Positions 9,897 to 39,549 of a stretch of 64,000 bases of DNA are shown here, one piece after another. Where the stretch lies: positions 62,001 through 126,000 of the forward strand of contig NZ_PVNB01000007.1 of NCBI RefSeq assembly GCF_003001995.1, read 5' to 3'. Origin of the DNA: Orenia metallireducens (lineage in GTDB: Bacteria; Bacillota; Halanaerobiia; Halobacteroidales; Halobacteroidaceae). Numbering within the stretch: position 1 is the stretch's first letter; every line of letters starts with the position of its first letter. Both the position numbers and the translations under genes were made by a program. A model generated the notes under the pieces. It ran no database searches and had not been told where the DNA came from. It saw nothing but the letters and a program-made list of their open reading frames with translations.

Positions 9897-10136
9897 TCAC
9901 AAAAAATGGTTTAGTGAATATTATATACCAAATGAGGAAAAGGAGGTGTACTACAATGGGTAAATGTGGATACGGATATGAATTCATCATCTTCTTAGTT
10001 CTTATCTTATTAATATTAGGCGGGAGTTGTTAGAAATATGATACAAAACTAAATAAACCCAACGATATAAACAATTTCATTCAAAAATAGTAGATATTAT
10101 CATCACAAAAAATGGATAACTGAATATTATATACCA
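9897..10136 (+). promoter_or_regulatory. Duplicated 34-35-base leader before microprotein genes 1 and 2
   Basis: The segment starting ATCACAAAAAATGG and ending GAATATTATATACCA occurs at 9897-9930 and again at 10102-10136, differing by only a few bases. Each copy lies about 25 bases upstream of a microprotein ATG. It is probably the promoter, duplicated together with the gene. I cannot assign a sigma factor: no clean SigE, SigG or SigK -10 is visible. Confidence 0.45.
9956..10033 (+). CDS. YjcZ-like hydrophobic microprotein 1
   Basis: This ORF encodes 25 residues beginning MGKCGYGYEF, then a hydrophobic run (IIFLVLILLILGG) and a final Cys. The shape is a short Gly/Cys/aromatic head, one membrane span and a tiny tail. 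It matches the YjcZ/YhcA-type microproteins of spore formers, which are tied to sporulation in Bacillus. AGGAGG lies 9 bases before the ATG. It is the first of four similar tandem genes, the only plus-strand genes in the window. No specific function is known; a coat or forespore membrane role is inference. Confidence 0.75.
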   Translation: MGKCGYGYEFIIFLVLILLILGGSC

Positions 10137-10159
10137 AGAGAAGAGGGGGTGACATTATA

Positions 10160-10234
10160 ATGGGTGACTACTGTGGAGGAAATGAAGCTTTTGTTATCTT
10201 CTTAATCCTTATCTTATTGCTCTTAGGTTCTTAA
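10160..10234 (+). CDS. YjcZ-like hydrophobic microprotein 2
   Basis: Twenty-four residues beginning MGDYCGGNEAFV, followed by one hydrophobic span (IFLILILLLLG) and ending directly in Ser. The AGAGGGGGTGAC ribosome site stands about 9 bases upstream. The head differs from copy 1 but the NEAFV...FLILILL core is shared with copies 3 and 4, showing tandem duplication. It has its own copy of the duplicated leader and so may be transcribed separately. Confidence 0.75.
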   Translation: MGDYCGGNEAFVIFLILILLLLGS

Positions 10235-10290
10235 TTTTATTAATAAATAAACTCAGGTAAAACCTTCAAGCTAGAAAGGAGGGATAAAAG

Positions 10291-10377
10291 ATGGGTGACT
10301 ATTGTGGAGATAATGAAGCTTTTGTTCTATTTTTAATCCTTATCCTATTGGTTTTATCCACTATGGGATACTGTTAA
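10291..10377 (+). CDS. YjcZ-like hydrophobic microprotein 3
   Basis: Twenty-eight residues with head MGDYCGDNEAFV, a membrane span (LFLILILLVLS) and the tail TMGYC. AAGGAGGGATAAAAG precedes the ATG at a good distance. The MGDYCG start is shared with copy 2 and the STMGYC tail with copy 4, so it is intermediate between its neighbours. No separate leader repeat is visible, so it is probably cotranscribed with copy 2. Confidence 0.75.
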   Translation: MGDYCGDNEAFVLFLILILLVLSTMGYC

Positions 10378-10422
10378 TCTCAAATTGAAAATTATCTTTA
10401 ATTAAGAAAGGTGGTGTGTATC

Positions 10423-10521
10423 ATGGGATGCTATGGAGGCGTTGATGGCGGAGACAATGAAGCTTTTGTTCTATTCTTAATCCTTATCTTATTGGTTTTA
10501 TCTACTATGGGATACTGCTAA
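10423..10521 (+). CDS. YjcZ-like hydrophobic microprotein 4
   Basis: Thirty-two residues; the head is extended (MGCYGGVDGGDNEAFV) and glycine rich, followed by the same span and the STMGYC tail as copy 3. AAAGGTGGTGTG provides the ribosome site. The gene closes the array and is followed after 19 bases by a strong terminator. The nearly identical cores suggest proteins that assemble together in a membrane, but that is inference. Confidence 0.75.
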   Translation: MGCYGGVDGGDNEAFVLFLILILLVLSTMGYC

Positions 10522-10539
10522 AAATATCAAATTTACCCA

Positions 10540-10570
10540 AAAGAAGAATCCTAAAGTAGGATTCTTCTTT
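10540..10570 (+). terminator. Terminator of the microprotein array, probably bidirectional
   Basis: A 14-bp perfect stem (10540-10553 with 10557-10570) around a 3-base loop. It ends in TTCTTTTATT on the plus strand and in CTTTT on the minus strand, so it may also stop transcripts from the selenium cluster. Confidence 0.85.
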
Positions 10571-10638
10571 TATTAAAAATATATCTTTAAAATATCTAAA
10601 TCTACATATTCTCAATACCATATAAGACAAGCTTCAAT

Positions 10639-10905
10639 CTACTTCTTTAACCTTATTATCCTCTTCTCTAATTTATCTTTTATCACTTGATAGTAGCCTG
10701 CAATCTCTATCTTATTCTCTCTTAATATCTCTAAAGGATTATCCTTAGTATTAACTCTAATCGCCATTCCACAATCAGCAGTAATTTCAGCTAAGACAGG
10801 TACCATCATAATTTTATAGCCTTGCTTTTGTAGAATCCCTTCTGCCGCTAAAGCATGATGGGTAGAATTAAAGACTAACAGATTATATTCATTATTTAAG
10901 CCCAT
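10639..10905 (-). CDS. DUF3343 protein, putative Se/S carrier-like
   Basis: An 88-residue protein of the DUF3343 family. The domain starts EYNLLVFNSTHHALAAEGIL, and the conserved DCGMAIRV segment carries its single cysteine. Families of this type are found beside selD, yedF and cysteine-desulfurase-like genes and have been proposed to carry selenium or persulfide sulfur; the biochemical role is not established. It is the last gene of the selD-led group, 18 bases after selD, which supports a selenium-handling job. The C-terminus is Lys/Arg rich. Confidence 0.75.
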   Translation of the reverse strand: MGLNNEYNLLVFNSTHHALAAEGILQKQGYKIMMVPVLAEITADCGMAIRVNTKDNPLEILRENKIEIAGYYQVIKDKLEKRIIRLKK

Positions 10906-10923
10906 TACTATAACCTCTCTTCT

Positions 10924-11967
10924 TTAATAACTAACCTTTATCTTAGCACCATGACCTCTAACTCTCCCAATCACAGTGGCATCATCAATACCCAAAGCAT
11001 ATAATTCTATCAATAAATCAGCAACCTTATCCCCAGCAACTGAAATTAATAGTCCACCAGAGGTCTGAGGGTCAAATAGTATATCAACTATATTCTGCTT
11101 AATCTCCCCTATAAATGTAACTTTGTCCTCTAAATGCTTCTTATTAGAGTAAGCCCCCTCAGGAATCATTCCCATCTCTGCATACTCTAAAGCATCAGCA
11201 AAGATAGGCAGTTCACTAGAAAAGATCTCTATTTCAACATCACTACCTTTAGCCATCTCCCATAGATGACCTAACAGACCAAAACCAGTTACATCAGTAC
11301 AGGCATTAACTCCAATTTTTTGCATTGGAGCCACAGCTTTATTATTTAAAGTCCTCATCGCTTTAACGGCTGGGTGATCTTTAATATTAGTAATTAGACC
11401 ACCTTTAATCGCAGTAGCTACAACCCCCATACCTAAAGGCTTGGTCAAAATCAAAAAGTCACCTGCTTGAGCCTCTGAATTGGTAAGTAGCTTGCCCTCT
11501 TCTATCACACCTGTCACAGATAGGCCATACTTAGGCTCATCATCTTGAATAGTATGCCCACCTGCTATAATTGCTCCTGCTTCTGCCACTTTATCAGCTC
11601 CTCCTTGTAAAATCTCAGCTAAAACTTTCTCACCTAAGCAGGTCCGAAAACCAACTACATTCATTGCTAATAATGGTCTTCCTCCCATAGCATAGATATC
11701 ACTTAAAGCATTGGTCGCAGCAATCTGCCCAAATAAATAAGGGTCATCAACTATTGGTGTAAAGAAATCAACAGATTGAATCAATATCTTATCATCACTA
11801 AATTGATAGGCAATAGCATCATCAGATTTGTCCAAACCTACTAATAATCTCTCATCTCCTGATTTAAAATCAACCTGATGCAAAACCCTAGATAGAGCCT
11901 GAGGGCTCATTTTGGCTGCACAGCCTGAAGTCTTACTATACTCTGTTAATTTGATTTTGTCTTTCAT
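10924..11967 (-). CDS. selD: Selenide, water dikinase (selenophosphate synthase), Cys form
   Basis: A 347-residue SelD makes selenophosphate from selenide and ATP. The N-terminal active-site segment reads KTSGCAAKMSP with Cys, not selenocysteine, at the catalytic position, followed by Lys. AIR-synthase-fold motifs include the QSVDFFTPIVDDPYLFG region, the AGGHTIQDDEPKYGLSV segment and the DVTGFGLLGHLWEMA stretch. Selenophosphate may supply selenoproteins, selenouridine or the selenium ligand of the molybdenum hydroxylases encoded at 28889-39549; no selA, selB or selC is visible here, so the last use is the best supported by context. AGGAGG precedes the ATG by 10 bases. Confidence 0.96.
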   Translation of the reverse strand: MKDKIKLTEYSKTSGCAAKMSPQALSRVLHQVDFKSGDERLLVGLDKSDDAIAYQFSDDKILIQSVDFFTPIVDDPYLFGQIAATNALSDIYAMGGRPLLAMNVVGFRTCLGEKVLAEILQGGADKVAEAGAIIAGGHTIQDDEPKYGLSVTGVIEEGKLLTNSEAQAGDFLILTKPLGMGVVATAIKGGLITNIKDHPAVKAMRTLNNKAVAPMQKIGVNACTDVTGFGLLGHLWEMAKGSDVEIEIFSSELPIFADALEYAEMGMIPEGAYSNKKHLEDKVTFIGEIKQNIVDILFDPQTSGGLLISVAGDKVADLLIELYALGIDDATVIGRVRGHGAKIKVSY

Positions 11968-12049
11968 CTAATTTAATCCTCCTTTATAATCACCTATCGC
12001 TAAAATCACATTTAATTATGATACTTTATGGAGATATTGCGACACTTTT

Positions 12050-12146
12050 TTCATTAGCCAATAGCTACTAGCCTCTAGCTTCTAGCTAGTAAACCTATAA
12101 GTTCTTAGCTAACAGCTAGAAGCCAGTAGCTGGTAGCTAAAGTATC
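12050..12146. repeat. TAGC-rich inverted repeat between selD and yedF
   Basis: The stretch is built from variants of TAGCTACTAGC and AGCTTCTAGCT. The left part (12057-12090) pairs with the right part (12107-12139), giving a long imperfect hairpin. Low-complexity palindromes of this kind are usually dispersed intergenic repeats. It does not end in a T run and I do not read it as a terminator. Confidence 0.55.
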
Positions 12147-12157
12147 GCACTATCTAT

Positions 12158-12724
12158 CTATAATGATACTACCTCACCTGTATTTAAGCTCTCAACTATC
12201 TCATACATATTAGTAATACTACCTACCTCTAACTTTTCAGTTAGTCCATAATAGTTCAAACAAGCTCCACAGGATACAACCTCTACCCCTTGCTCTACTA
12301 GCTGTTGTAAATGCTCTTGAGCCTGCTGATTTAATGTAGGAATTTTAACCCCTGAGTTGATAAAAATAATCTTAGCTGGCAATGGGTTTATTTCTAATAA
12401 GGTACTAACAAAACCCTTCATCAAGGCATAACCAAGTTCTTCTTCACCCTTACCCAAAGTATCAGTACTGATAAAATAGACCTTCCCTCCACTTTCATCC
12501 TGCTTCTCAACAACCATATCAGTTTTTTTAATGGTTAACTGATATTCATTGCCATCTTCTAATAAAGTAACTTGGCAATTTAACTTCTTAGCCAACTTCA
12601 TTACATTATCCTTAGCCACCTGATCATCTAACAACACCAATAATTTATCACTTTTCTCTAAAGCCTTTTTAGTCTCAATAACTGGCTTTGGACAGATCAT
12701 TCCTCGTACATCAAGCTCTTTCAT
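12158..12724 (-). CDS. yedF: YedF-type selenium metabolism protein (TusA domain plus DsrE-like domain)
   Basis: A 188-residue two-domain protein. Residues 1-70 are TusA/SirA-like with the carrier cysteine in RGMICPKPVIETKKAL. Residues ~80-188 are DsrE-like with the CGACLNYYGL motif. Proteins with this architecture co-occur with selD and are linked to selenium delivery in anaerobes. The gene overlaps the cysteine-desulfurase-like gene by 4 bases, so the two are translated together. A reasonable inference is that selenium or sulfur moves as a perselenide or persulfide from the PLP enzyme to these cysteines. Confidence 0.85.
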   Translation of the reverse strand: MKELDVRGMICPKPVIETKKALEKSDKLLVLLDDQVAKDNVMKLAKKLNCQVTLLEDGNEYQLTIKKTDMVVEKQDESGGKVYFISTDTLGKGEEELGYALMKGFVSTLLEINPLPAKIIFINSGVKIPTLNQQAQEHLQQLVEQGVEVVSCGACLNYYGLTEKLEVGSITNMYEIVESLNTGEVVSL

Positions 12725-13881
12725 AAACCAAACTCCTCCTTATTATTAGCTATTTTAGATAAAGCCTCTAAGATAATATCTACCTCTTCTTCTGTATTGA
12801 AATAGGAAAAACTGACTCTAACCATCCCTATCTTTTTAGTATGCAAGGCTTGGTGGAGTAAAGGAGCACAGTGCAAGCCTGCTCTAACTGAGATATTGAA
12901 GTGACTTTCTAAGATATATCCCAAATCAGCTGCTGCTATTTCTTTTAAGTTAAATCCTACAACGGCTACTCTAGCTTCCATCTCTAAATCACCATAGATT
13001 ATAATATCATTTATCTTCTTTAAGCCTGCTATCAACCTCTTAGTCAACCTTAGCTCTTCTGCTCTAATCTGAGCAATTCCAGTCTCTAGAACAAAATCAA
13101 TCCCTGCACCTAAACCAATAATCCCCATAGTATTGAGAGTTCCTGCTTCATAGCGATCTGGTAAGATTGTCGGCTGATAAGTCGATAAGGAGTCACTTCC
13201 TGTTCCGCCCTCTATTAGGGTATCTAGTTCAATTCCTTCATTAATATATAAAACTCCTATTCCTGGAGGACCATATAGTGATTTGTGCCCTGCTAAAACC
13301 AGTAAATCTATCTTCATCTTCTCAACATCAATCTCAACTACACCTGCTGTCTGAGCTGCATCAACTAGATAAGTAATCCCTCTATTATGAGCTAACCCTC
13401 CAATTCTTTTGATATCGACTATACTTCCAATCACATTAGAAGCATGGGTAGTTACTATCAAAGTAGTATTCTCTTGAATTTCTTCTTCTAACTGCTTTAA
13501 ATTCAATCTACCTTTTTGATCAATTTGAATAATACTTAACTCAATTAACTTACTTTTTTCTAATTTCCTTAAGGGACGCAATACAGAATTATGTTCAAGC
13601 TCAGTAGTGATGACATGATCACCTTTCCGTAAAACCCCTTTTATCGCTAAATTCAATGCCTCTGTAGCACCAGAGGTAAAGATAACTCTAGAAGAATTAG
13701 CAGCATTAATTAACTTGGCTACCTTAGTTCTAACATTAAATATATCTCTTTCAATTCTAGATATTCCAACACCACCAGACCTACCAGGGTTATAGCCAAA
13801 ATCCCTCATACAAGAATTGATCTGCTGATAAACCCCTTCTGGCTTAGGCCAAGTTGTGGCAGCATTATTGACATAAATCAT
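12721..13881 (-). CDS. Cysteine desulfurase / selenocysteine lyase-like PLP enzyme
   Basis: A 386-residue class V aminotransferase, starting MIYVNNAATTWPKPEGV. The PLP lysine is in LVLAGHKSLYGPPGIG, and the histidine of TTELEHNSV and the aspartate of YLVDAAQTAG frame the cofactor. Near the C-terminus, SVRAGLHCAPLLHQAL carries the active-site cysteine in the short loop typical of the TIGR01977-like group. It removes sulfur or selenium from cysteine or selenocysteine and would hand it to YedF and the DUF3343 protein. Its place in a selD cluster favours a selenium role, but specificity cannot be read from sequence. Confidence 0.88.
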   Translation of the reverse strand: MIYVNNAATTWPKPEGVYQQINSCMRDFGYNPGRSGGVGISRIERDIFNVRTKVAKLINAANSSRVIFTSGATEALNLAIKGVLRKGDHVITTELEHNSVLRPLRKLEKSKLIELSIIQIDQKGRLNLKQLEEEIQENTTLIVTTHASNVIGSIVDIKRIGGLAHNRGITYLVDAAQTAGVVEIDVEKMKIDLLVLAGHKSLYGPPGIGVLYINEGIELDTLIEGGTGSDSLSTYQPTILPDRYEAGTLNTMGIIGLGAGIDFVLETGIAQIRAEELRLTKRLIAGLKKINDIIIYGDLEMEARVAVVGFNLKEIAAADLGYILESHFNISVRAGLHCAPLLHQALHTKKIGMVRVSFSYFNTEEEVDIILEALSKIANNKEEFGL

Positions 13882-13980
13882 ATTAATTTACTCCTTTTAT
13901 TAATTCATTAATAGGCAATTAGTAACAACTGTCCACACCAATCTTATTTTTTAATACTAAAGTAGTTATCTAACATTAAT

Positions 13981-14925
13981 TTAACTCTTTTGAGTAGATA
14001 ATTCTCTTAGCTTTTTAACAGAAACTATATGTACTAAGTATTTGAATAGAACAAAAGACACTAGAGCAATTGATAATAGTTCTACTCCCCTTGCTGGATA
14101 ATAGAGCAAAAGACTATTGAAATTCTTCTGTAAAAAAGATGAAGCCATCTTCAAACCAATGGCTGTGATTACAAAAGGAAAAGTAAAAGCAGAAAAACTG
14201 GGATAAAAATCTCTTGAAATCATTTTTGGCAGATAGCTTGTAACCAGAGTTATCATAACTAGGGTCAATAGACTAAGTAATCCTACCATCATCAGACTTT
14301 TATTAGTAAAAGCACTCATATAACCTGCCAAACAAAGACCTGCTGGAGCTGTAAAGATAGAGATAGTAGGTAAGGCTGCCTTCTTAATCTCCTTAATAAC
14401 TAAGACTCGATAAGTGATTATTGGGAGCAAAAGCAGATAAGTAGCAAAACCAAACCAGAAGATTATCTGACCAAGTTGCAGCTGATTAAAAGCTGGAGCA
14501 GTTACACTAGCTACTACTATCCCTACATAAACAATAAAACAACTAGGAAAGACCTTCTTGATATTAAAATTAAAGATAAAGCTAATAGAGAATAAGATCA
14601 TCAATAAAATATGTAGAACAATCCCTCCATACCAAAAATATAAGGCCAATTGGTAAGAGAAAGGAAGCAGATAAGTAGCTAAAATTATAATTGCCATAGA
14701 GAAGGTTGGGAAAACACTAGCTACAACTGGATTCTCTAATTGAGCTAAGAAGCCTTTCTTATTAGCAAAGAAACTACCAATTAATAACAAAGCCACCAAC
14801 ATAGCTAATATTCCAGCTAAATAACGATACTGATTACCATAACCTTGAATTAAATTACCTAAACCCGCTAAACCAAGCATCAGACCTGCTATCGGTACTG
14901 GCACCCTTTTAAAAATTTCTGTCAT
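13981..14925 (-). CDS. TDT-family membrane transporter (TehA/SLAC1 fold) in the selenium cluster
   Basis: A 314-residue membrane protein with about ten hydrophobic segments. The N-terminus KRVPVPIAGLMLGLAGLGNL and the mid-protein FTAPAGLCLAGYMSAF are typical of the telluriteresistance/dicarboxylate transporter family, channel-like proteins for anions. The flanking genes all handle selenium or sulfur, so selenite, selenide or another oxyanion is an attractive substrate, but that is inference from context. Fifty bases separate it from the C_GCAxxG_C_C gene upstream and 99 bases from the desulfurase downstream. Confidence 0.8.
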   Translation of the reverse strand: MTEIFKRVPVPIAGLMLGLAGLGNLIQGYGNQYRYLAGILAMLVALLLIGSFFANKKGFLAQLENPVVASVFPTFSMAIIILATYLLPFSYQLALYFWYGGIVLHILLMILFSISFIFNFNIKKVFPSCFIVYVGIVVASVTAPAFNQLQLGQIIFWFGFATYLLLLPIITYRVLVIKEIKKAALPTISIFTAPAGLCLAGYMSAFTNKSLMMVGLLSLLTLVMITLVTSYLPKMISRDFYPSFSAFTFPFVITAIGLKMASSFLQKNFNSLLLYYPARGVELLSIALVSFVLFKYLVHIVSVKKLRELSTQKS

Positions 14926-14975
14926 TTATTTTACCCCCTATTTATTTTAATTCAAATTGAAGGTTTAATCAATTC

Positions 14976-15437
14976 TTAATCTAAAACTCCATCTTCAATG
15001 AACTTACTCATTACCCAAGCAGCTACTTCTCCTGTGATCCCAATACAATGCTCAGCCCGTTTAGGACTAGCAAAATCTTCAAATTTGGCAGTAATCACCC
15101 TACAGCAGGTAGAACCATACTCCTCTTTGATATAGTCATGGAGCTCTGCACTTCTAGGAAAAGAGTTAGCTGGCATCTTGGCTCCTGGCTCTGTCCTTCC
15201 ATACTTTAAACCCAAAGCCATCACTCCACCACTAATCGCCCCACATAGACATTTGGACTTACCGATTCCGACTGGAAATCCTGAAGCCAACTTAACAATC
15301 TCTGCTGGCAACTCTTCTCCCAATAATTGATTGATAGTGGTCAATACTGCCTCAGAGCAATAATACTCTCCCCTTCTAAAATATCCTTCCGCTTGTTGAC
15401 GGGCACTTTCAATTAAATTAGTTTGCTCTTGTTTCAT
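14976..15437 (-). CDS. C_GCAxxG_C_C family redox protein
   Basis: A 153-residue protein with the family's cysteine signature: YYCSEAVL, then CLCGAISGGVMALG, later STCCRVIT and EHCIGITGEVAAWV. Members are small anaerobe proteins predicted to bind metal or a redox cofactor through these cysteines; a biochemical function is not established. The cysteine-rich character fits a cluster dealing with reduced sulfur and selenium. The ATG at 15437 follows a GGAG-type site. Confidence 0.85.
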   Translation of the reverse strand: MKQEQTNLIESARQQAEGYFRRGEYYCSEAVLTTINQLLGEELPAEIVKLASGFPVGIGKSKCLCGAISGGVMALGLKYGRTEPGAKMPANSFPRSAELHDYIKEEYGSTCCRVITAKFEDFASPKRAEHCIGITGEVAAWVMSKFIEDGVLD

Positions 15438-15525
15438 AGTTTAAATTCTCCTCTCATAATTAACATAGTTTTTAAGAAATTTAAGATTATTCTTTAATTG
15501 CTCAATTTTAATAATTTAATATAAT

Positions 15526-16071
15526 TTATGAAAGTCCTTTAATTATTTTAAATGTTTGCTTTAAATCTTTCTCATCAACCCCGATAATAGGAATACCTAT
15601 TTCCTCTTCTTTAAAAATCTCTCTTATCTCTTCGATAAATATCCCTGCTCCATCTATACTCTTTACATTATTAAGGTTAAACTCTAGTTTGGGTGAACTA
15701 AATGTTCCTCCCCAATCTCCAGAACAGCTTCTATTTACACCACAACTAGGGCTACCTTCTATACCAAGCAAGCCCACAATTTGATAATCAGCAGCCTGAT
15801 AATCCTTAATCTGTTCTAAGTAAGGTTTAAATACCTCTCGACAATGCTTTCGAAAATAAGGAGTGTTAAACTGCTCTTTAACATGCCCCCATCTTTTCAC
15901 ACCATAAACTGTTAACTCTGGACAAGGAAGCTGAATAATCCCTAAACCTTGCTCCATTAATAGACTAACAACCTCTGATAAAGCTCCTCTATATTGAGAT
16001 AGTCCTTCTACCTTAGAATTACAATTTAGTATACAATGGGCTATTAAAACTATCTTTTTATCTCTCTTCAT
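15526..16071 (-). CDS. TudS-related putative desulfidase (CD3072 type)
   Basis: A 181-residue protein (IAHCILNCNSKVEGL; IQLPCPELTVYG; GIEGSPSCGVN). It belongs to the family of TudS, a [4Fe-4S] enzyme that removes sulfur from thiouracil, and the three spread cysteines would hold such a cluster. The upstream neighbour is an ECF S component; the same pair is found in Clostridioides difficile as CD3072-CD3073. The pair may import and desulfurate a thio- or seleno-compound, feeding the adjacent Se/S genes. The substrate is unknown. Confidence 0.78.
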   Translation of the reverse strand: MKRDKKIVLIAHCILNCNSKVEGLSQYRGALSEVVSLLMEQGLGIIQLPCPELTVYGVKRWGHVKEQFNTPYFRKHCREVFKPYLEQIKDYQAADYQIVGLLGIEGSPSCGVNRSCSGDWGGTFSSPKLEFNLNNVKSIDGAGIFIEEIREIFKEEEIGIPIIGVDEKDLKQTFKIIKGLS

Positions 16072-16098
16072 TATTAACTAGCCTCTCCTTTTACTATA

Positions 16099-16659
16099 TT
16101 AGAATCTCTTTCGAATCTGATAATCGAATCTCTGCACTAAAAAAGCTACTACAAGGCAGCTAGCAATCTTATCAACTAAATTACTAGTAATCCTAGCAAT
16201 GAAGGCAGCTTGAAAGATACTCTCTCCTGAATGAAGTAACCAAGCATAAAGTAGGTCAACTCCACCACCAGTTAAACCACTAAAGAGAAAAACTGCAATT
16301 GGAGTCCCAACCAAAGGGGCAACTACTGATAAGATTAGTCCAGTTATTAGAGCAGTTAGATAATTAAAGCTATATCTTTTAGCAATTAATCCTACAATTA
16401 AAGCAATCACAATATTGACGATAGCAAAGGGAATATTTTTAGGATTGAATAAAACCCCTTGAATTACATTAGTTAAACCTCCTGTCATAACCCCATAAAC
16501 AGGACCTAAAACCACTGACACAAAAATAGTACCAATAGTATCCAAAAATAAAAGAGGAATCTTAAAACTAGAAACCGCTGTACCAAAAACCATATTAATC
16601 ACAATTCCTAAAGCTGCTAAAATCAACTTTAATGTTTTTTTATCATCCATATCCTTCAC
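16099..16659 (-). CDS. ECF transporter S component (CD3073 type)
   Basis: A 186-residue integral membrane protein with five to six hydrophobic segments and the S-component look (KLILAALGIVINMVFGT near the N-terminus, TGGLTNVIQGVLFNP in the middle). It would bind a small solute and share a common EcfT/EcfA module, which is not encoded nearby. Its partner gene downstream is a TudS-like protein 27 bases away, so the solute may be a thiolated or selenated nucleobase or a related compound. A hairpin terminator isolates it from the permease gene upstream. Confidence 0.75.
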   Translation of the reverse strand: MKDMDDKKTLKLILAALGIVINMVFGTAVSSFKIPLLFLDTIGTIFVSVVLGPVYGVMTGGLTNVIQGVLFNPKNIPFAIVNIVIALIVGLIAKRYSFNYLTALITGLILSVVAPLVGTPIAVFLFSGLTGGGVDLLYAWLLHSGESIFQAAFIARITSNLVDKIASCLVVAFLVQRFDYQIRKRF

Positions 16660-24583: not shown

Positions 24584-25375
24584 TTAACTAAAAGAGAGGA
24601 TTGCTTCTAAAACTCCCCCTCCTATTGCCAAAGCCTTGTCTGAAATAGTGGTACTATGCTTGATTTCACCTCTAGGATCTATATCTCCCAACTTCGTTCC
24701 AATTTTAACCATTATATCACTTCTTAAAACCCCTCTAATCACCCCTGAGATTTCTGCCTTAATTGGCTGTTGATCTATATAGCCAAAGACCCCACCGGCT
24801 TCAATCATATCACCTATACTATACCGTGAAGTGAATCTTCCTATTATAGGAGCCTTCAAGACTCGCTCTCTAGAGTAACCAGCAATCATCCCAGGCAGAC
24901 CAGTATTCTCTTGAGCTCTTCCTGCTCTAATCACTCGACCTAGAAAGTGACCTCGATTGGTCTCAATTACAGCATCTACATCTACCCCCGCCTCAAAGCC
25001 TGGTCCTAAAGCAATCACAACCTCTGCATCATCGATAGCAGTTCCTAAATTACGTTTAGCAATAATAGCATCTATTAATACACTAAAGTCCATCTTATCT
25101 TTAACCTTAGCTTGAGGATCGATAATTACTGGGATATTTCCTTCTGCTAAAATATCTTTAACCTCTTGCAGCCCCTCTGCTCTATAAGCCTTAATCCCTT
25201 CCACCTCACAGTAACCTTGATAAATCGCTTCTGAGAAAGCAACGGTTCTGCGAACAGTTAGAGGTTTCTCAACTTCAGTCATAACTATCTTAAATCCTGA
25301 CTTATATAACCTATAAGCTACACCAGTAGCTAAATCACCTGCTCCTCTAATTAAAATCAATTTATCTTTAATCAT
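24584..25375 (-). CDS. yqeB: YqeB, selenium-dependent molybdenum hydroxylase system protein
   Basis: A 263-residue protein starting LILIRGAGDLATGVAYRLYKSGF, a nucleotide-binding fold, with later VVIALGPGFEAGVDVDAVIETNRGH. This is the YqeB (EF2563-like) family, which comparative genomics links to the selenium-containing molybdenum hydroxylase trait along with yqeC and selD. It is thought to help build the labile selenium cofactor. The start overlaps mocA by 8 bases. Confidence 0.92.
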   Translation of the reverse strand: MIKDKLILIRGAGDLATGVAYRLYKSGFKIVMTEVEKPLTVRRTVAFSEAIYQGYCEVEGIKAYRAEGLQEVKDILAEGNIPVIIDPQAKVKDKMDFSVLIDAIIAKRNLGTAIDDAEVVIALGPGFEAGVDVDAVIETNRGHFLGRVIRAGRAQENTGLPGMIAGYSRERVLKAPIIGRFTSRYSIGDMIEAGGVFGYIDQQPIKAEISGVIRGVLRSDIMVKIGTKLGDIDPRGEIKHSTTISDKALAIGGGVLEAILSFS

Positions 25376-25982
25376 AGTTCATCCCTTCTTTCAATAACCT
25401 CTGATAATCCTCTGCTCTATCTATATCAAAATGGATTGCAGGGGAAGCTACTTTTACTATTTCAACTTGACTATCATACTTAGCAATCAATTCTCTACCC
25501 CCTTTATCTCCACTAACTCTACTTAATTCATCTAACAAGTCAACATTAAAGATAGTCGGGTTTCCTCTGAACCCTTTATATTCTGGTACCAAGATTAGAG
25601 GTTTTTCTTCCAGAAAGACTTTTAATAATTTATTTATAATTACAGTATTAATATAAGGTAAATCTCCTGGTAAGAATAAAATCCCCTCTAAAGTTTCTTC
25701 CTCTTTAATAGCTTCAACCCCAGCCTTGACAGAGCTACTCAATCCTGCTCGATAATCACTATTAAAGATTAGATTCAGTTCCTTATCTTGTAGCAATTCT
25801 CTTATCTGCTGAGCCTGATGACCTAATACAACTAAAACTTGCTCAACCTCAGAAGCTAAAACCTGATCTACTACCACTTCTATTAGCCTTTTATTAGCAA
25901 ATTGCTCCCCTAAGTTTAATAGCTGTTTGGGATAGCCCAATCTACTTGATAATCCTGCTGCTAAGACAATTGCAGCTATCAT
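25368..25982 (-). CDS. mocA: Molybdenum cofactor cytidylyltransferase (MocA/YgfJ type)
   Basis: A 204-residue nucleotidyltransferase with the signature AIVLAAGLSSRLGYPKQLL at the N-terminus and LFLPGDLPYI in the middle. It adds CMP to molybdopterin to make the dinucleotide cofactor used by xanthine-dehydrogenase-family enzymes. It overlaps yqeC by 4 bases and yqeB by 8, giving a closely coupled yqeC-mocA-yqeB-MPT-xdhC-type operon. The substrate preference (CTP over GTP) is family knowledge. Confidence 0.92.
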   Translation of the reverse strand: MIAAIVLAAGLSSRLGYPKQLLNLGEQFANKRLIEVVVDQVLASEVEQVLVVLGHQAQQIRELLQDKELNLIFNSDYRAGLSSSVKAGVEAIKEEETLEGILFLPGDLPYINTVIINKLLKVFLEEKPLILVPEYKGFRGNPTIFNVDLLDELSRVSGDKGGRELIAKYDSQVEIVKVASPAIHFDIDRAEDYQRLLKEGMNYD

Positions 25983-26740
25983 TCAAAGACCTCTACCAAA
26001 GGGTTAAATAATTCCAATGAAGTTAACAGCACCTTTTCAAAGCTCTCTTCTCGCAGGATTTTGGCTAAAGAGCAGGCTTGATTATAGACTATCTTATCAT
26101 CAACTTGATTAATGATAGGAATAACTTGATAGGAATTATTCTTCAACTTCCCATAGCATTCTTCTCTACAGATTATCTCTGCAATAATTTCAGGGGTAAC
26201 CTGACCAATAGCATCTTGCTCAAAAACTCCCTTGGCAAGCTCAGCCCGATAGACATACTCATCATTGAACTCTTTGCCAATTACCGAAGCACCAACTACC
26301 AACAGCACCTTGGTAGTATTAATTGGAATCACCGGTTCATCTTCCCTTGGCAATTTGAAAGGACGCCTTCTAGCACCATCAGCCTCTACTAAAATATGTT
26401 TGATCCCCTCAAACTCATCAGCAAGTACCTCTACCCACTCTGAGGGAACCCCAATCAACTTGCCATCATCTACATCATTACCGATCACAATTACTTGATC
26501 TTCTTCTCGTTTTAAAGCAGTTCTAAGCTCCTCTAGTAACTGCTCTAACGTAGTAGCCATAATCAAAGCATCGATCTTATCTAATTCTGGTAAATATATT
26601 TTGGTAGTTGTAGTAACCAAGATATTCCCCTGCTTATTTAGCTGCTCAGCCAGATAATACATAATACTACTCTTACCACCACCACCTACTAAAGAGATTA
26701 TCCTGTCAGACTCTAATTCCAGCACTCCCTCTAACCTCAT
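25979..26740 (-). CDS. yqeC: YqeC, selenium cofactor biosynthesis protein
   Basis: A 253-residue P-loop protein. The start ISLVGGGGKSSIMYYLAEQL is a Walker A, and HILVEADGARRRPFKLPREDEPVIP is the family hallmark. YqeC is one of the markers, with YqeB and SelD, of selenium-dependent molybdenum hydroxylases, and its exact reaction is unknown. It follows adenine deaminase by 11 bases. Pairing of this operon with two hydroxylases downstream of it in the cluster supports their being selenoenzymes. Confidence 0.93.
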   Translation of the reverse strand: MRLEGVLELESDRIISLVGGGGKSSIMYYLAEQLNKQGNILVTTTTKIYLPELDKIDALIMATTLEQLLEELRTALKREEDQVIVIGNDVDDGKLIGVPSEWVEVLADEFEGIKHILVEADGARRRPFKLPREDEPVIPINTTKVLLVVGASVIGKEFNDEYVYRAELAKGVFEQDAIGQVTPEIIAEIICREECYGKLKNNSYQVIPIINQVDDKIVYNQACSLAKILREESFEKVLLTSLELFNPLVEVFE

Positions 26741-35659: not shown

Positions 35660-36742
35660 TCACCTCCTAGACCACTTCAAAACCTCTGTTGGACAACTGG
35701 TCACACAGAAACCACAACCAAAACATTTATCTGAATCTATCTCTAACTTATCATCAAAAGCCAACGCATCATAAGGGCAGACCTTAACACAGATATTACA
35801 CTGACAACAATCATCACTAACATAAGGTACTTCTTTTTTCAAATTCTTCTCTTCCTTTATCTCTGTTAGAGCTAAGCCTTTAATCTCAGCCAAAGAACCA
35901 TATCCTTTTTCTTCAAGAAAGTCTGCCATCTCTTGGGCAACCCTCCCATAGATATCTGCTCCTTTGACCATAGCAGCTGTACAGATTTGGACTGCTGAAG
36001 CACCTGCCATCATCATCTTAATAGCATCTTCTCCTGTAGAAACTCCGCCTACTCCAATAATTGGGATATCTACTGCTTGAGCAGCTTCAAAGACACATCG
36101 TAAGGCTAAAGGAAAGATAGCTCGACCAGATAACCAGCCATAACCATAGTTATTACCTAATAAGGCTTTACCGCTATTAATATCTATATCTAAACATGGT
36201 CCAAAGGAATTAATCAGAACGATCCCATCTGCACCAGCCTCTTCAGCAGCTTGTGCAAATTTGGGTATATCAACCTGTGGGCTTAACTTGACCAATACTG
36301 GTAAATCTGCAGAGCTTTTAGCTGCTTTGATCGCCTCAACTACTGGTGTAGTATCACCACCCAAATAATGAGTAGATAGCTCTAAACAATCGGCAAATTC
36401 TGCTACTTGGGGAGCTAACGTCTTGATCTCCTCAGCAGAATAGCCTAAGCCTATAATTACAGGTAAGCCCAACTCTTTAATCTGAGGATACTCCTCTGTT
36501 AACCAAATCTCTGGTTCCAGCTCTGACCAGAGTTCAGAGTTCAACATCCCTCCTTCTATCTTAGCAATGCAGGGACGAGAGACCTCTGCACCTTTAACAG
36601 AAATTGTCTTAGTTACAATTGCTCCTGCCCCTCCCTTTACAGCTAAGCTAGCTGCTTTGGCATCTTTAACTGGTGGTCCTGCTGCAGGCATCACTGGGTT
36701 CTTCAAATCCATATTTAATAGCTCAATTCCTATATCAGCCAT
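35660..36742 (-). CDS. Dihydropyrimidine/dihydroorotate dehydrogenase-like protein with two 4Fe-4S clusters (PreA-like)
   Basis: A 360-residue protein. Residues 1-300 are a flavin-binding TIM barrel of the dihydroorotate/dihydropyrimidine dehydrogenase class (LNMDLKNPVMPAAGPPV; GADGIVLINSFGP; IIGVGGVSTGEDAIKMMMAG). The C-terminal 60 residues hold two ferredoxin clusters (CCQCNICVKVCP; CFGCGFCVTSCP). PreA-type enzymes reduce uracil or thymine rings. Inside a purine operon it might reduce a purine- or pyrimidine-like intermediate, ahead of the hydantoinases at 41352 and 50536. No PreT partner is next to it. The substrate is unknown. Confidence 0.85.
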   Translation of the reverse strand: MADIGIELLNMDLKNPVMPAAGPPVKDAKAASLAVKGGAGAIVTKTISVKGAEVSRPCIAKIEGGMLNSELWSELEPEIWLTEEYPQIKELGLPVIIGLGYSAEEIKTLAPQVAEFADCLELSTHYLGGDTTPVVEAIKAAKSSADLPVLVKLSPQVDIPKFAQAAEEAGADGIVLINSFGPCLDIDINSGKALLGNNYGYGWLSGRAIFPLALRCVFEAAQAVDIPIIGVGGVSTGEDAIKMMMAGASAVQICTAAMVKGADIYGRVAQEMADFLEEKGYGSLAEIKGLALTEIKEEKNLKKEVPYVSDDCCQCNICVKVCPYDALAFDDKLEIDSDKCFGCGFCVTSCPTEVLKWSRR

Positions 36743-36798
36743 AATTCTTCCTCCTTCTTAACTAAGCTTAAGCTCAAGTCTAAACTATACTCTTCAAT

Positions 36799-39549
36799 TT
36801 ACTTAGACTCGGACTCAGACTTTAATAATTCAATGTCAATTGGTATTTTAGTCAATCTCTTCCCTGTTAAGCGATACAATGCATTGACAACCGCTGGTGC
36901 CACTGGAGCAACGGGCAATTCAGACATTCCTTTAGCACCATAGGGCCCATCAGGATGATTCTCCTCTATTAAGATACTCTTTACCTCTGACATATCTGTT
37001 GTTTTAGGTAACTTTAGCTTGAGGAGATTATCTTGGACTAATCTGCCATCTTGAAGATAGAAATCTTCGCTAAGAGCATAACCTAAGCCCATAGCTACTC
37101 CTCCTTCTATCTGCCCCTCGACACTCTTGAGATTGATTGTCTTTCCTAAATCATGGGCTGCAATTACCTTCAAGACCTTGACATCATTATTAGCTTGGTC
37201 CCATTCTACCAAAGCACCATGGGCAGCATAGCAATAAGCAAAGTGTAGCTTATCCCAGCCTGCAGTTGGTGTAGCCGGGATAGCATCCTTAGCAAGTGGT
37301 GCAGTTCTAGGAGGGATATACTTATAAGAGTCAAATAATTGAATATCTTTATTAGCAATTTCAGCCAAAGTGATTACTAAGTCTCGAGTATCCTTATCCT
37401 TAACCTCTCCATCTTCTATGTATAAGCCATCTATAGAGACTCCACTAACTTCTGCTACCGCTTTTAAGATTTTATCTTTTAATCCTTCTGCAGCACCTTT
37501 GACAGCATTTCCTGATAGAAAGACCATCCTCGAACCAGTAGTTACACCAATATCAGGGGTCAGTTCTGTATCACCTGCCAAGACCTTGACCTCTCGATAA
37601 TCAATCCCCAAAGCTGTAGCAGCTATCTGTGCCATTGCTGTATCAGAGCCCTGTCCAGAATCGATACACCCTACATATAAGGTAAAGCTTCCATCTGAAT
37701 TCAACTCTATTCTAGCCTCAGTCTCTTCTTCTAGTCCAGTACCCAAACCTACATTCTTATAAGCTGCAGCTATTCCCCAAGCTCTTTTCTTATTATCAGT
37801 ATTTACAATTTCTTCCTTAGCTATTGCTTCTTGTAACTTAATTAAGCAATCTTTAAAGCCGATCCCACCTGCTACAACCTCACCAGTTAAGGTATCTCTC
37901 CCATCTTCTAAAGCATTCTTCAACCTAAGCTCAATGGGATCCATTCCTAGTTTCTCAGCTAAACGATCCATCTGTATCTCAGCAGCAAAGCAGACCTGTG
38001 GAGCTCCAAAGCCTCTAAAAGCTCCCCCTGGCAGGTTATTGGTATAAACAGCTTTGACATCAACCTTGGCATTAGCAACTTGATATGGTCCTAAAGCAAA
38101 AGAGGTTGCCCTTCCTGCTACTGGCTGACCAGCCGAAGCATAAGCCCCAGTATCGGTATAAATCTCAACCTCAGCCCCTACCAATTTCCCATCCTTTGTT
38201 GCCCCCGTCTTATAATGGAGATAAGCAGCATGGCGTTTAGTTGAAATCCGAATCGATTCCTCTCTAGTCAAGACCATCTTCACTGGTCTCTTTAAAAGCA
38301 GAGCAGCTAGAGCTGTATGTACTTGAACAGTAGGCTCTTCTCGCCCACCAAAGGCACCTCCAGTACAAGTGGTAATTACCCTTACCTTATCTTCAGACAG
38401 ATTCAAGCTGGCTGCAATTATATTCCGATACTCATAGGAACCCTGACTAGGAGTCCAGACTATTATCCTACCATCTATATACTCTGCCAAACATCCTTCA
38501 GGCTCCAAGTAAGCATGCTCTGTAAAAGGGGTCTGATAAGTATCTTCAATTATCACATCAGCTTCGGCAAAGGGATCTTCATAATTACCCTTACGTAGCT
38601 TAATATCAGTTAGAATATTACCATCTTCATGAATATCAACAGCATCATCTACTAAAGCTTCTGCTGGACTATAGTAAGTAGGCAGCTGCTTATATTTAAC
38701 CTCTATTTCCTCTACCCCTTTAGCTGCAGCCTCTTGACTCTCTGCTATCACCAAAGCTATGGGATCACCGATATAACGGACCTTATCATAGGCCAATACT
38801 GGTTGGTGATTGATAATTAAACCAAAATCCTTTTCACCTGGAATATCCTCAGCCGTTAATACCTCTACAACTCCAGGGATTTTCTCTGCCTTACTAGTAT
38901 CGATCTCTATTATCTCAGCATGGGGTTCACTACTCAAATGTAGTTTTCCATATAACATCCCTTCTCGAAAGAGATCATCTACATAAAGCGGTTTACCAGT
39001 TACCTTCTCTAAGGCATCGTTTCGAATCTCCTTAGCAGCTAATAACTCTTTACTCTTAGCTATAGTAAATTCTCTATTTTCCCTTAAATAACTAGCTGCC
39101 AATTGAATAGCTTCAATAATCTTTTGGTATCCTGTACAGCGACAGATATTGGCCTTTAAAGCCTTCTTGACCTCTTGAGTAGAAGGTTGCTTATTCTTAT
39201 CTAATAAAGCTTTGGCTGACATAATCATTCCTGGAGTACAGAAACCACATTGGATAGCACCCGTCTCCATAAAAGCAAGCTGTAAAGGGTGTAAACTACC
39301 ACCTTTACTTAAATTTTCAATGGTTTCTATCTTACTTTCATTTAATCTTGATAATTTCCAGACACATGATTTTTGGGCTCTACCATTAATGATTACAGTA
39401 CAAGTACCGCAATGCCCCTGATTACAGCCATTTTTTGCTCCTAATAATCCTAATTTCTCTCTTAAAAAAGTTAGCAGAGTTAAAGAGCCTTCCTCATTTC
39501 TAACCTTTACCTTTTCTCCATTAATTACTAAACTTATACCTTCAGCCAT
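36799..39549 (-). CDS. Selenium-dependent xanthine dehydrogenase, Fe-S and Mo domains fused
   Basis: A 916-residue enzyme joining a 2Fe-2S module (residues 1-160; GCNQGHCGTCTVII, CGFCTPGMIMSAKALL, NICRCTGYQKI) to a molybdopterin-binding module (~175-916; CTGGAFGGREEPTVQVH, GGAFRGFGAPQVCFAAE, GAKGMSELP). No FAD domain is present. The architecture matches the selenium-dependent xanthine dehydrogenase family of clostridia. Electrons may go to the XdhB-type subunit or to the ferredoxin-like PreA protein encoded downstream. The cell thus has two hydroxylases, perhaps for different purines. AAGGAGGAAGAGCT precedes the ATG. Confidence 0.92.
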   Translation of the reverse strand: MAEGISLVINGEKVKVRNEEGSLTLLTFLREKLGLLGAKNGCNQGHCGTCTVIINGRAQKSCVWKLSRLNESKIETIENLSKGGSLHPLQLAFMETGAIQCGFCTPGMIMSAKALLDKNKQPSTQEVKKALKANICRCTGYQKIIEAIQLAASYLRENREFTIAKSKELLAAKEIRNDALEKVTGKPLYVDDLFREGMLYGKLHLSSEPHAEIIEIDTSKAEKIPGVVEVLTAEDIPGEKDFGLIINHQPVLAYDKVRYIGDPIALVIAESQEAAAKGVEEIEVKYKQLPTYYSPAEALVDDAVDIHEDGNILTDIKLRKGNYEDPFAEADVIIEDTYQTPFTEHAYLEPEGCLAEYIDGRIIVWTPSQGSYEYRNIIAASLNLSEDKVRVITTCTGGAFGGREEPTVQVHTALAALLLKRPVKMVLTREESIRISTKRHAAYLHYKTGATKDGKLVGAEVEIYTDTGAYASAGQPVAGRATSFALGPYQVANAKVDVKAVYTNNLPGGAFRGFGAPQVCFAAEIQMDRLAEKLGMDPIELRLKNALEDGRDTLTGEVVAGGIGFKDCLIKLQEAIAKEEIVNTDNKKRAWGIAAAYKNVGLGTGLEEETEARIELNSDGSFTLYVGCIDSGQGSDTAMAQIAATALGIDYREVKVLAGDTELTPDIGVTTGSRMVFLSGNAVKGAAEGLKDKILKAVAEVSGVSIDGLYIEDGEVKDKDTRDLVITLAEIANKDIQLFDSYKYIPPRTAPLAKDAIPATPTAGWDKLHFAYCYAAHGALVEWDQANNDVKVLKVIAAHDLGKTINLKSVEGQIEGGVAMGLGYALSEDFYLQDGRLVQDNLLKLKLPKTTDMSEVKSILIEENHPDGPYGAKGMSELPVAPVAPAVVNALYRLTGKRLTKIPIDIELLKSESESK

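Follow-up and report, generated by a model that had tools for sequence, protein, structure and literature searches.

A paired TDT/SLAC1-family membrane protein and six-cysteine protein as a candidate selenium-anion module in a proposed selenium-supply locus of Orenia metallireducens

Positions 10639-16659 of a 64,000-nucleotide stretch of Orenia metallireducens DNA (the window, positions 62001-126000 of contig C7 in a 4.1 Mb genome labelled G000) carry eight genes, all on the minus strand. An earlier note, made from the letters of the DNA alone, had described a selenium/sulfur cluster here, and every gene it named is an open frame at the coordinates listed below. The subject of this analysis is a membrane protein of the TDT/SLAC1 family encoded within this cluster, together with the adjoining gene for a protein of the C_GCAxxG_C_C family (CG), which the earlier note left unnamed and which proves to be the real partner of the TDT gene. 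The eight genes are as follows.

16099-16659, minus strand: ECF transporter S component, CD3073 family (NF045596, 239 bits, cut-off 180)
15526-16071, minus strand: predicted TudS-related desulfidase, CD3072 family (NF045597, 195 bits, cut-off 130)
14976-15437, minus strand: C_GCAxxG_C_C protein (CG) with six invariant cysteines, partner of the TDT protein (PF09719, 102.5 bits, cut-off 27)
13981-14925, minus strand: TDT/SLAC1-family membrane protein of a selD-linked subfamily (PF03595, 69.0 bits, cut-off 27.9)
12721-13881, minus strand: cysteine desulfurase family protein (TIGR01977, 466 bits, cut-off 377)
12158-12724, minus strand: YedF (TIGR03527, 207.5 bits, cut-off 110)
10924-11967, minus strand: SelD, selenide water dikinase (TIGR00476, 386 bits, cut-off 125)
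10639-10905, minus strand: putative Se/S carrier, formerly DUF3343 (PF11823, 72 bits, cut-off 25)

The selenium-handling core of SelD, YedF, DUF3343 protein and desulfurase that had been proposed for this cluster is borne out, all four proteins matching curated models above cut-off. SelD is the Cys form and not the Sec form, its gene being free of in-frame TGA codons and internal stops. The desulfurase is possibly a selenocysteine lyase; assignment to SclA was considered and dropped at 347.7 bits in NF040779 against a cut-off of 525. The genome contains both selD and yqeB, the marker pair of the selenium-cofactor trait, that of the selenium-dependent molybdenum hydroxylases (SDMH).

Relatives of the TDT protein show that its gene has a constant companion. 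A search of 149 genomes of the phylum with the window protein returned matches in 16, comprising 13 strong ones (42-100% identity, the window included), one at 36% and two at about 25%. Genome contigs were also scanned with a profile of the 13-row TDT alignment, and the best 80 of 370 relatives are referred to here as the named loci; samples of 68 Clostridium and 299 Lachnospiraceae genomes were compared as well. A CG gene adjoins the TDT gene at 11 of the 12 other strong phylum loci, ten times on the same strand with a gap of 1-22 bp and once divergently, and at the twelfth (L019) the contig starts directly ahead of the TDT gene. Adjacency is found at 61 of the 80 named loci, with CG upstream on the same strand in 46, convergent and downstream in 8, downstream on the same strand in 4, and upstream in some other or broken arrangement in 3; at 3 of the 80, CG lies within 7 kb without adjoining. 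Clostridium orthologues of the TDT protein score above 360 bits and other TDT proteins there at most 230 bits, and a CG gene adjoins 6 of the 7 orthologues but none of the 23 paralogues whose loci were examined. Lachnospiraceae have CG at 21 of the 30 TDT loci examined. Since gene order varies while adjacency stays constant, CG and TDT are considered a functional pair, whose genes may be co-transcribed. A DUF169-type gene follows the TDT gene at 5 of the 80 named loci (L097, 8991-9797, and four others; PF02596 tested in L097 only), and DUF169 also stands in the STRING list given for YedE in the cited part of one study (PMC5322559).

The pair is found almost exclusively in genomes that encode SelD. 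In the phylum, selD is above cut-off in 104 of 149 genomes and present in all 13 with a strong TDT match versus 91 of 136 others (p 0.007). In Clostridium (selD in 39/68) the figures are 7/7 orthologue genomes and 32/61 others (p 0.016), and in Lachnospiraceae (selD in 97/299) 28/32 genomes with a TDT match of at least 199 bits and 69/267 others (p 1e-11). The Lachnospiraceae result holds at a threshold of 280 bits (24/26 vs 73/273) and among loci with CG (19/21). Pooling the three samples gives selD in 48 of 52 TDT-bearing genomes versus 192 of 464 others, with a stratified odds ratio of 28, and all 48 named isolate genomes tested, representing 48 of the 80 named loci, have selD. Viewed from the other side, genomes without selD carry an orthologue in 4 of 202 cases in Lachnospiraceae, 0 of 29 in Clostridium and 0 of 45 in the phylum (strong matches counted). 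Clostridium genomes with TDT paralogues alone have selD in 16 of 26 cases, and those without any TDT match in 16 of 35; this control is informative in Clostridium only, because five of the six paralogue-only Lachnospiraceae genomes carry selD. The earlier note had suggested this kind of comparison and had counted a lack of co-occurrence as evidence against a selenium role; what emerged was co-occurrence with selD.

At a few loci the pair lies among selenium genes. Of 88 TDT-bearing genomes, 4 (G000, L082, L149 and L220) encode SelD within 10 kb of CG-TDT, where about 0.5 would be expected. Halanaerobium congolense (L082) has the order LysR, CG, TDT, YedF, SelD, and H. salsuginis (L099) the order S component, TudS-like, CG, TDT, YedF. 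Anaerocolumna aminovalerica (L149) has a selenium-cofactor island made up of desulfurase, CG-TDT, Se/S carrier, SelD, LysR, YqeC, YqeB and YedF. The island of Lachnoclostridium phytofermentans (L220) runs through YqeC, Se/S carrier, desulfurase, YqeB, YedF, SelD and XdhC and on to MoaA, MoeA-like and LysR genes, followed by divergent CG and TDT. Five of seven neighbouring LysR proteins tested (L082, L084, L085, L142 and L149) pass the cut-off of NF040786, the model for a "selenium metabolism-associated LysR", and those of L092 and L159 fall under it; a selenium-associated LysR gene neighbours CG-TDT both in Halanaerobiales and in Lachnospiraceae. A related regulator, HrsM, is described in the cited parts of two studies as controlling selenium-responsive genes of Methanococcus (PMC9312934, PMC11097638).

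The type of selenium use differs among carriers of the pair. Of the 48 named TDT genomes, 42 encode a SelD with an in-frame TGA, which suggests that those 42 use selenocysteine. Where TDT genomes have the Cys form, yqeB or yqeC lies close to selD in 13 of 18 examined. Because CG-TDT is found with TGA-containing SelD and with Cys-form SelD beside yqeB or yqeC, it appears to follow selenium supply at SelD and not any one use of it. The idea of the TDT protein as a selenium channel, put forward in the earlier note, finds partial support in the distribution of its orthologues, which track selD in three samples; in their surroundings the usual neighbour is CG and not a selenium gene.

Both members of the pair have recognizable structural relatives. 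In CG, C27, C63, C65, C111, C112 and C131 are invariant across 81 alignment rows. Its structure model (pLDDT 92.6) has one clear match, part of the split-Soret cytochrome c 1h21 (Foldseek probability 1.00; Z 14.8, rmsd 2.9 over 138 residues); the next best has Z 4.0, and the fold search otherwise gave weak matches only. CG has the fold of the N-terminal domain of 1h21, an entry whose title mentions a "novel iron centre", and profile alignment places cysteines of the cytochrome at C65, C112 and C131. It differs in spanning chain residues 22-192 of the cytochrome only and in having three more invariant cysteines, C27, C63 and C111. The fold agrees, and CG may bind an iron centre like that of the cytochrome. 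Selenocysteine in CG was considered and discarded, as no in-frame TGA occurs among the nearest CG matches at the 80 named loci. A second C_GCAxxG_C_C gene stands immediately ahead of YedF in Halanaerobium saccharolyticum (L087, 14039-14563), and another branch of the family may serve selenium handling there too.

A profile of the TDT alignment finds SLAC1 and, at E 9e-10 to 3e-8, TehA chains, which it covers along almost their full length. F249, invariant in 13 rows, aligns to F262 of TehA, which is taken here to be the pore gate. C198 is also invariant, but was rejected as a special selenium-binding residue because TehA has a Cys at the aligned position. The window protein nevertheless belongs to a subfamily distinct from TehA, SLAC1 and Ssu1, scoring 43.7 bits in TIGR00816, the model of the tellurite-resistance/dicarboxylate subfamily, against a cut-off of 237.25, and it differs further in being paired with a CG gene and in tracking selD.

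The two genes at the head of the locus, for the S component and the TudS-related protein, follow a different rule. CD3072 proteins are above cut-off in 9 of 149 phylum genomes and CD3073 proteins in 5 of 149, all five among those nine and within 3 kb of CD3072. In one genome (G133) the order is S, two ABC ATPases, T (CbiQ) and TudS-like; in two others (G132 and G013) it is S, T, double ATPase and TudS-like; and in the window genome and G014 the S component and TudS-like protein stand alone. Elsewhere the TudS-like gene adjoins an ABC transporter with a family-3 binding protein (G061 and G134) or follows a PucR purine regulator (G057), and in G112 neither a transporter nor a PucR gene stands beside it. 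Ten of these neighbours were checked against Pfam; the second ATPase of G133 and the copies in G013 were identified from sequence. CD3072 tracks yqeB (7/9 vs 40/140 genomes, p 0.005), as does CD3073 (5/5 vs 42/144, p 0.003), in small samples in which G013 and G132 belong to one genus. None of the eight other phylum CD3072 loci adjoins selenium genes, and the 12 other strong phylum TDT loci (stretches of at most 20 kb) have no TudS-like or S-component gene and one desulfurase-like gene (L020). CD3072 is joined to CG-TDT in three Halanaerobium loci (L084, L087 and L099). As the TudS/ECF genes track yqeB and TDT tracks selD, the single cluster envisaged at first is better described as two modules. 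The "orphan" status noted for the S component is accurate locally, with no ECF ATPase or T gene within the interval, the remaining genome not having been searched for them.

The TudS-like protein has C13, C50, E52, S107 and C110 invariant in 12 rows, S109 being Thr in two. These and S109 correspond to Cys10, Cys43, Glu45, Ser101, Cys104 and Ser103 of TudS, described as its cluster cysteines, Glu and Ser residues in the cited part of PMC10611767. TudS entries 6z92 and 6z96 are the top two fold matches of its model (pLDDT 83), at E of about 2e-3; the sequence-profile search found no TudS in the PDB. The protein is called TudS-related, and not TudS, because it scores 25.0 bits in PF04463 (DUF523) against a gathering threshold of 34.7. 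Another difference is that CD3072 sits with transporters, none being described for TudS in that same part of PMC10611767. The S component itself shows weak similarity to folate-family S proteins (TIGR04518, 29.5 bits). One TGA in the CD3072 gene of G013 (L046, 9706-10287) was considered as selenocysteine; it stands at a Trp of the sister genome G132 and is hence read as a nonsense change. Overall the pattern is in keeping with selenium users that degrade purines taking up a thio-heterocycle and removing its sulfur. The earlier suggestion that this pair could import and strip a thio- or seleno-nucleobase gains partial support, from the import system beside CD3072 in 7 of 9 genomes and the PucR regulator in another.

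Genes upstream of the unit are concerned with purines and selenium, and the Mo-Se hydroxylase genes reported near the cluster are real: yqeB, yqeC, ssnA, xanthine-dehydrogenase subunits, a match near the selenium-dependent xanthine dehydrogenase (XDH) model, ygeY and diaminopropionate ammonia-lyase. The trait markers are:

24584-26740, minus strand: yqeB, mocA-like and yqeC, markers of the selenium-cofactor trait, upstream of the unit

YqeB (TIGR03309, 368 bits) and YqeC (TIGR03172, 161.7 bits) are above cut-off and the MocA-like protein is slightly under it (TIGR03310, 175.6 bits, cut-off 186). The upstream genes encode a PF00860 permease, diaminopropionate ammonia-lyase, an amidohydrolase, YgeY, XdhC-type and MoeA-like proteins, YqeB, the MocA-like protein, YqeC, adenine deaminase, xanthine-dehydrogenase-type subunits, SsnA, 8-oxoguanine deaminase, a PreA-like protein, a selenium-dependent-XDH-like protein, PbuX and hydantoinase. 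At 35660-39549 a fused Fe-S/Mo protein comes near the selenium-dependent XDH model (790.7 bits, cut-off 830), and the PreA-like protein, with C-terminal ferredoxin matches, adjoins it. These genes form a selenium-dependent purine breakdown cluster, a kind of locus already known from the cited parts of PMC2276186 and PMC11448449. The SDMH/selenium-cofactor loci of Haft and Self likewise bring together selD, yedF, desulfurase, yqeB, yqeC and molybdenum hydroxylase genes; the window adds the CG-TDT and CD3072/CD3073 pairs, which are not named in the cited part of that work (PMC2276186).

Several smaller features lie in or beside the unit. Between the YedF and SelD genes, at 12062-12139, lies an inverted repeat of 26 nt that is imperfect and contains much TAGCTA/TAGCT. 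Four tandem hydrophobic open reading frames of 24-39 aa (for example MGDYCG.NEAF..FLILILL) lie on the plus strand at 9914-10521, convergent to the selenium unit, partly inside repeats 71-91% similar and separated from it by an inverted repeat at 10522-10588. They presumably resemble YjcZ-type sporulation peptides; the three of the four tested had no Pfam match. A promoter-like site ahead of the S gene (16700-16671) was discarded as evidence, 32 such sites being found in the region versus 28.6 in shuffles. At gathering thresholds the window has no Rfam match.

Taken together, positions 10639-16659 can be read, plausibly though tentatively, as one selenium-supply unit of three modules in which the TDT protein passes a small selenium (or sulfur) anion. 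In the core, the desulfurase, YedF, SelD and Se/S carrier would mobilise selenium and produce selenophosphate. CG and TDT would work as a pair, TDT offering a Phe-gated path of the TehA/SLAC1 type to a small monovalent anion. The likeliest anions are hydroselenide and hydrogen selenite, and hydrosulfide or sulfite may pass as well. The soluble CG protein, on the cell side, would contact the channel and either gate its path or receive the chalcogen through its six cysteines. In the third module, the S component would import a thio-heterocycle and the TudS-like enzyme would remove its sulfur (or selenium), in organisms with the selenium-cofactor trait. Uptake or homeostasis is preferred over pure detoxification because the pair follows selD, that is, the ability to use selenium, and because exposure to sulfide and selenite extends beyond selD bearers and the TDT gene hardly does. 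The more specific claim is possible but doubtful: that CG-TDT is a dedicated selenium transport module of anaerobes, a channel of SLAC1 fold that conducts hydroselenide or hydrogen selenite, is gated or unloaded by an iron- or thiol-based partner, stands under selenium-responsive LysR control and serves both selenocysteine and the selenium cofactor through SelD.

A number of observations weigh against this reading. Ssu1 of yeast, presumably a TDT protein, is the best-known precedent and is an exporter. Most selD genomes do without the TDT gene (192 of 240 in the three samples), and four Lachnospiraceae genomes (G365, G461, G469 and G491) have TDT without selD, two of them also with CG; the 36%-identical relative in G067 lacks both selD and CG. 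The examined stretch holds no CG at 16 of the 80 named loci, several of them on short contigs, and at 9 of the 30 Lachnospiraceae loci. Genes for SelD, YedF, YqeB/C or the Se/S carrier are absent from 12 of 12 other strong phylum TDT loci, and SelD, YedF, YqeB or YqeC is encoded within about 8 kb at 4 of the 80 named loci only. The yqeB gene was rejected as the trait behind TDT (5/13 vs 42/136 phylum genomes, no link). YedE resembles TDT in being a membrane protein whose distribution follows selD and a candidate for selenium movement, as the cited part of PMC5322559 describes it, but belongs to another family (TIGR04112); linkage to TDT or replacement by it was rejected, YedE occurring in 21 of 48 TDT-bearing and 12 of 32 TDT-lacking selD genomes, and the window genome has no YedE match. 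The co-occurrence tests, finally, treat genomes as independent though they are related, with no correction for phylogeny; despite this, the association with selD is argued from the agreement of three groups.

The alternative that survives best, though unlikely, makes CG-TDT an exporter of sulfur anions (sulfide, sulfite or thiosulfate) which spares SelD competition from sulfur or sheds toxic sulfide or selenide, so that its association with selenium would be an indirect one. Ssu1 provides a TDT precedent as an exporter of sulfite and selenite, the cited part of one study describing selenite efflux (PMC10269739), and in most genomes selenium genes are not near CG-TDT. Against this, anaerobes without selD ought to face a simple sulfur or sulfide problem just as much, yet the orthologue is almost missing there, and the selenium-associated LysR gene adjoins the pair in two distant groups. 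It is rather improbable that TDT moves a carboxylate or ordinary anion of a selenium-dependent fermentation, such as that of glycine reductase or formate dehydrogenase users, with selD as a marker of life-style. TehA-type relatives are annotated as dicarboxylate transporters, and Sec-type SelD is commoner in TDT-bearing Lachnospiraceae (17/28 vs 21/69, p 0.011; TGA marks counted by eye); against this, CG-TDT also accompanies Cys-type SelD near yqeB/yqeC, including in selenium-cofactor islands, and a carboxylate carrier leaves the six-cysteine partner unexplained. A chance neighbourhood, in which CG-TDT is an unrelated unit put between two selenium-related modules in Halanaerobiales, would agree with its standing alone in most genomes but is very improbable given the excess of selD-linked loci, the recurrence of islands in Halanaerobiales and Lachnospiraceae, and a genome-wide co-occurrence independent of gene neighbourhood.

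According to the cited part of a 2026 review (PMC13188914), a high-affinity transport system specific for selenium has yet to be identified in any prokaryote, and deletion of five candidate loci in Methanococcus maripaludis, YedE included, left none clearly required for any selenium species according to the cited part of PMC11097638. Among the papers listed, literature searches on TDT/SLAC1/TehA with selenium and on C_GCAxxG_C_C proteins found none linking the two, and a search on CD3072/CD3073 with selenium listed nothing relevant. CG-TDT tracks selD in three samples and has a selenium-associated regulator beside it, which makes it a new and concrete candidate for a selenium transporter. With the CD3072/CD3073 module, a connection between the desulfuration of nucleobases and the selenium-dependent breakdown of purines becomes open to test. 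If the assignment of CG-TDT is true, it would provide the first role for one branch of the C_GCAxxG_C_C family.

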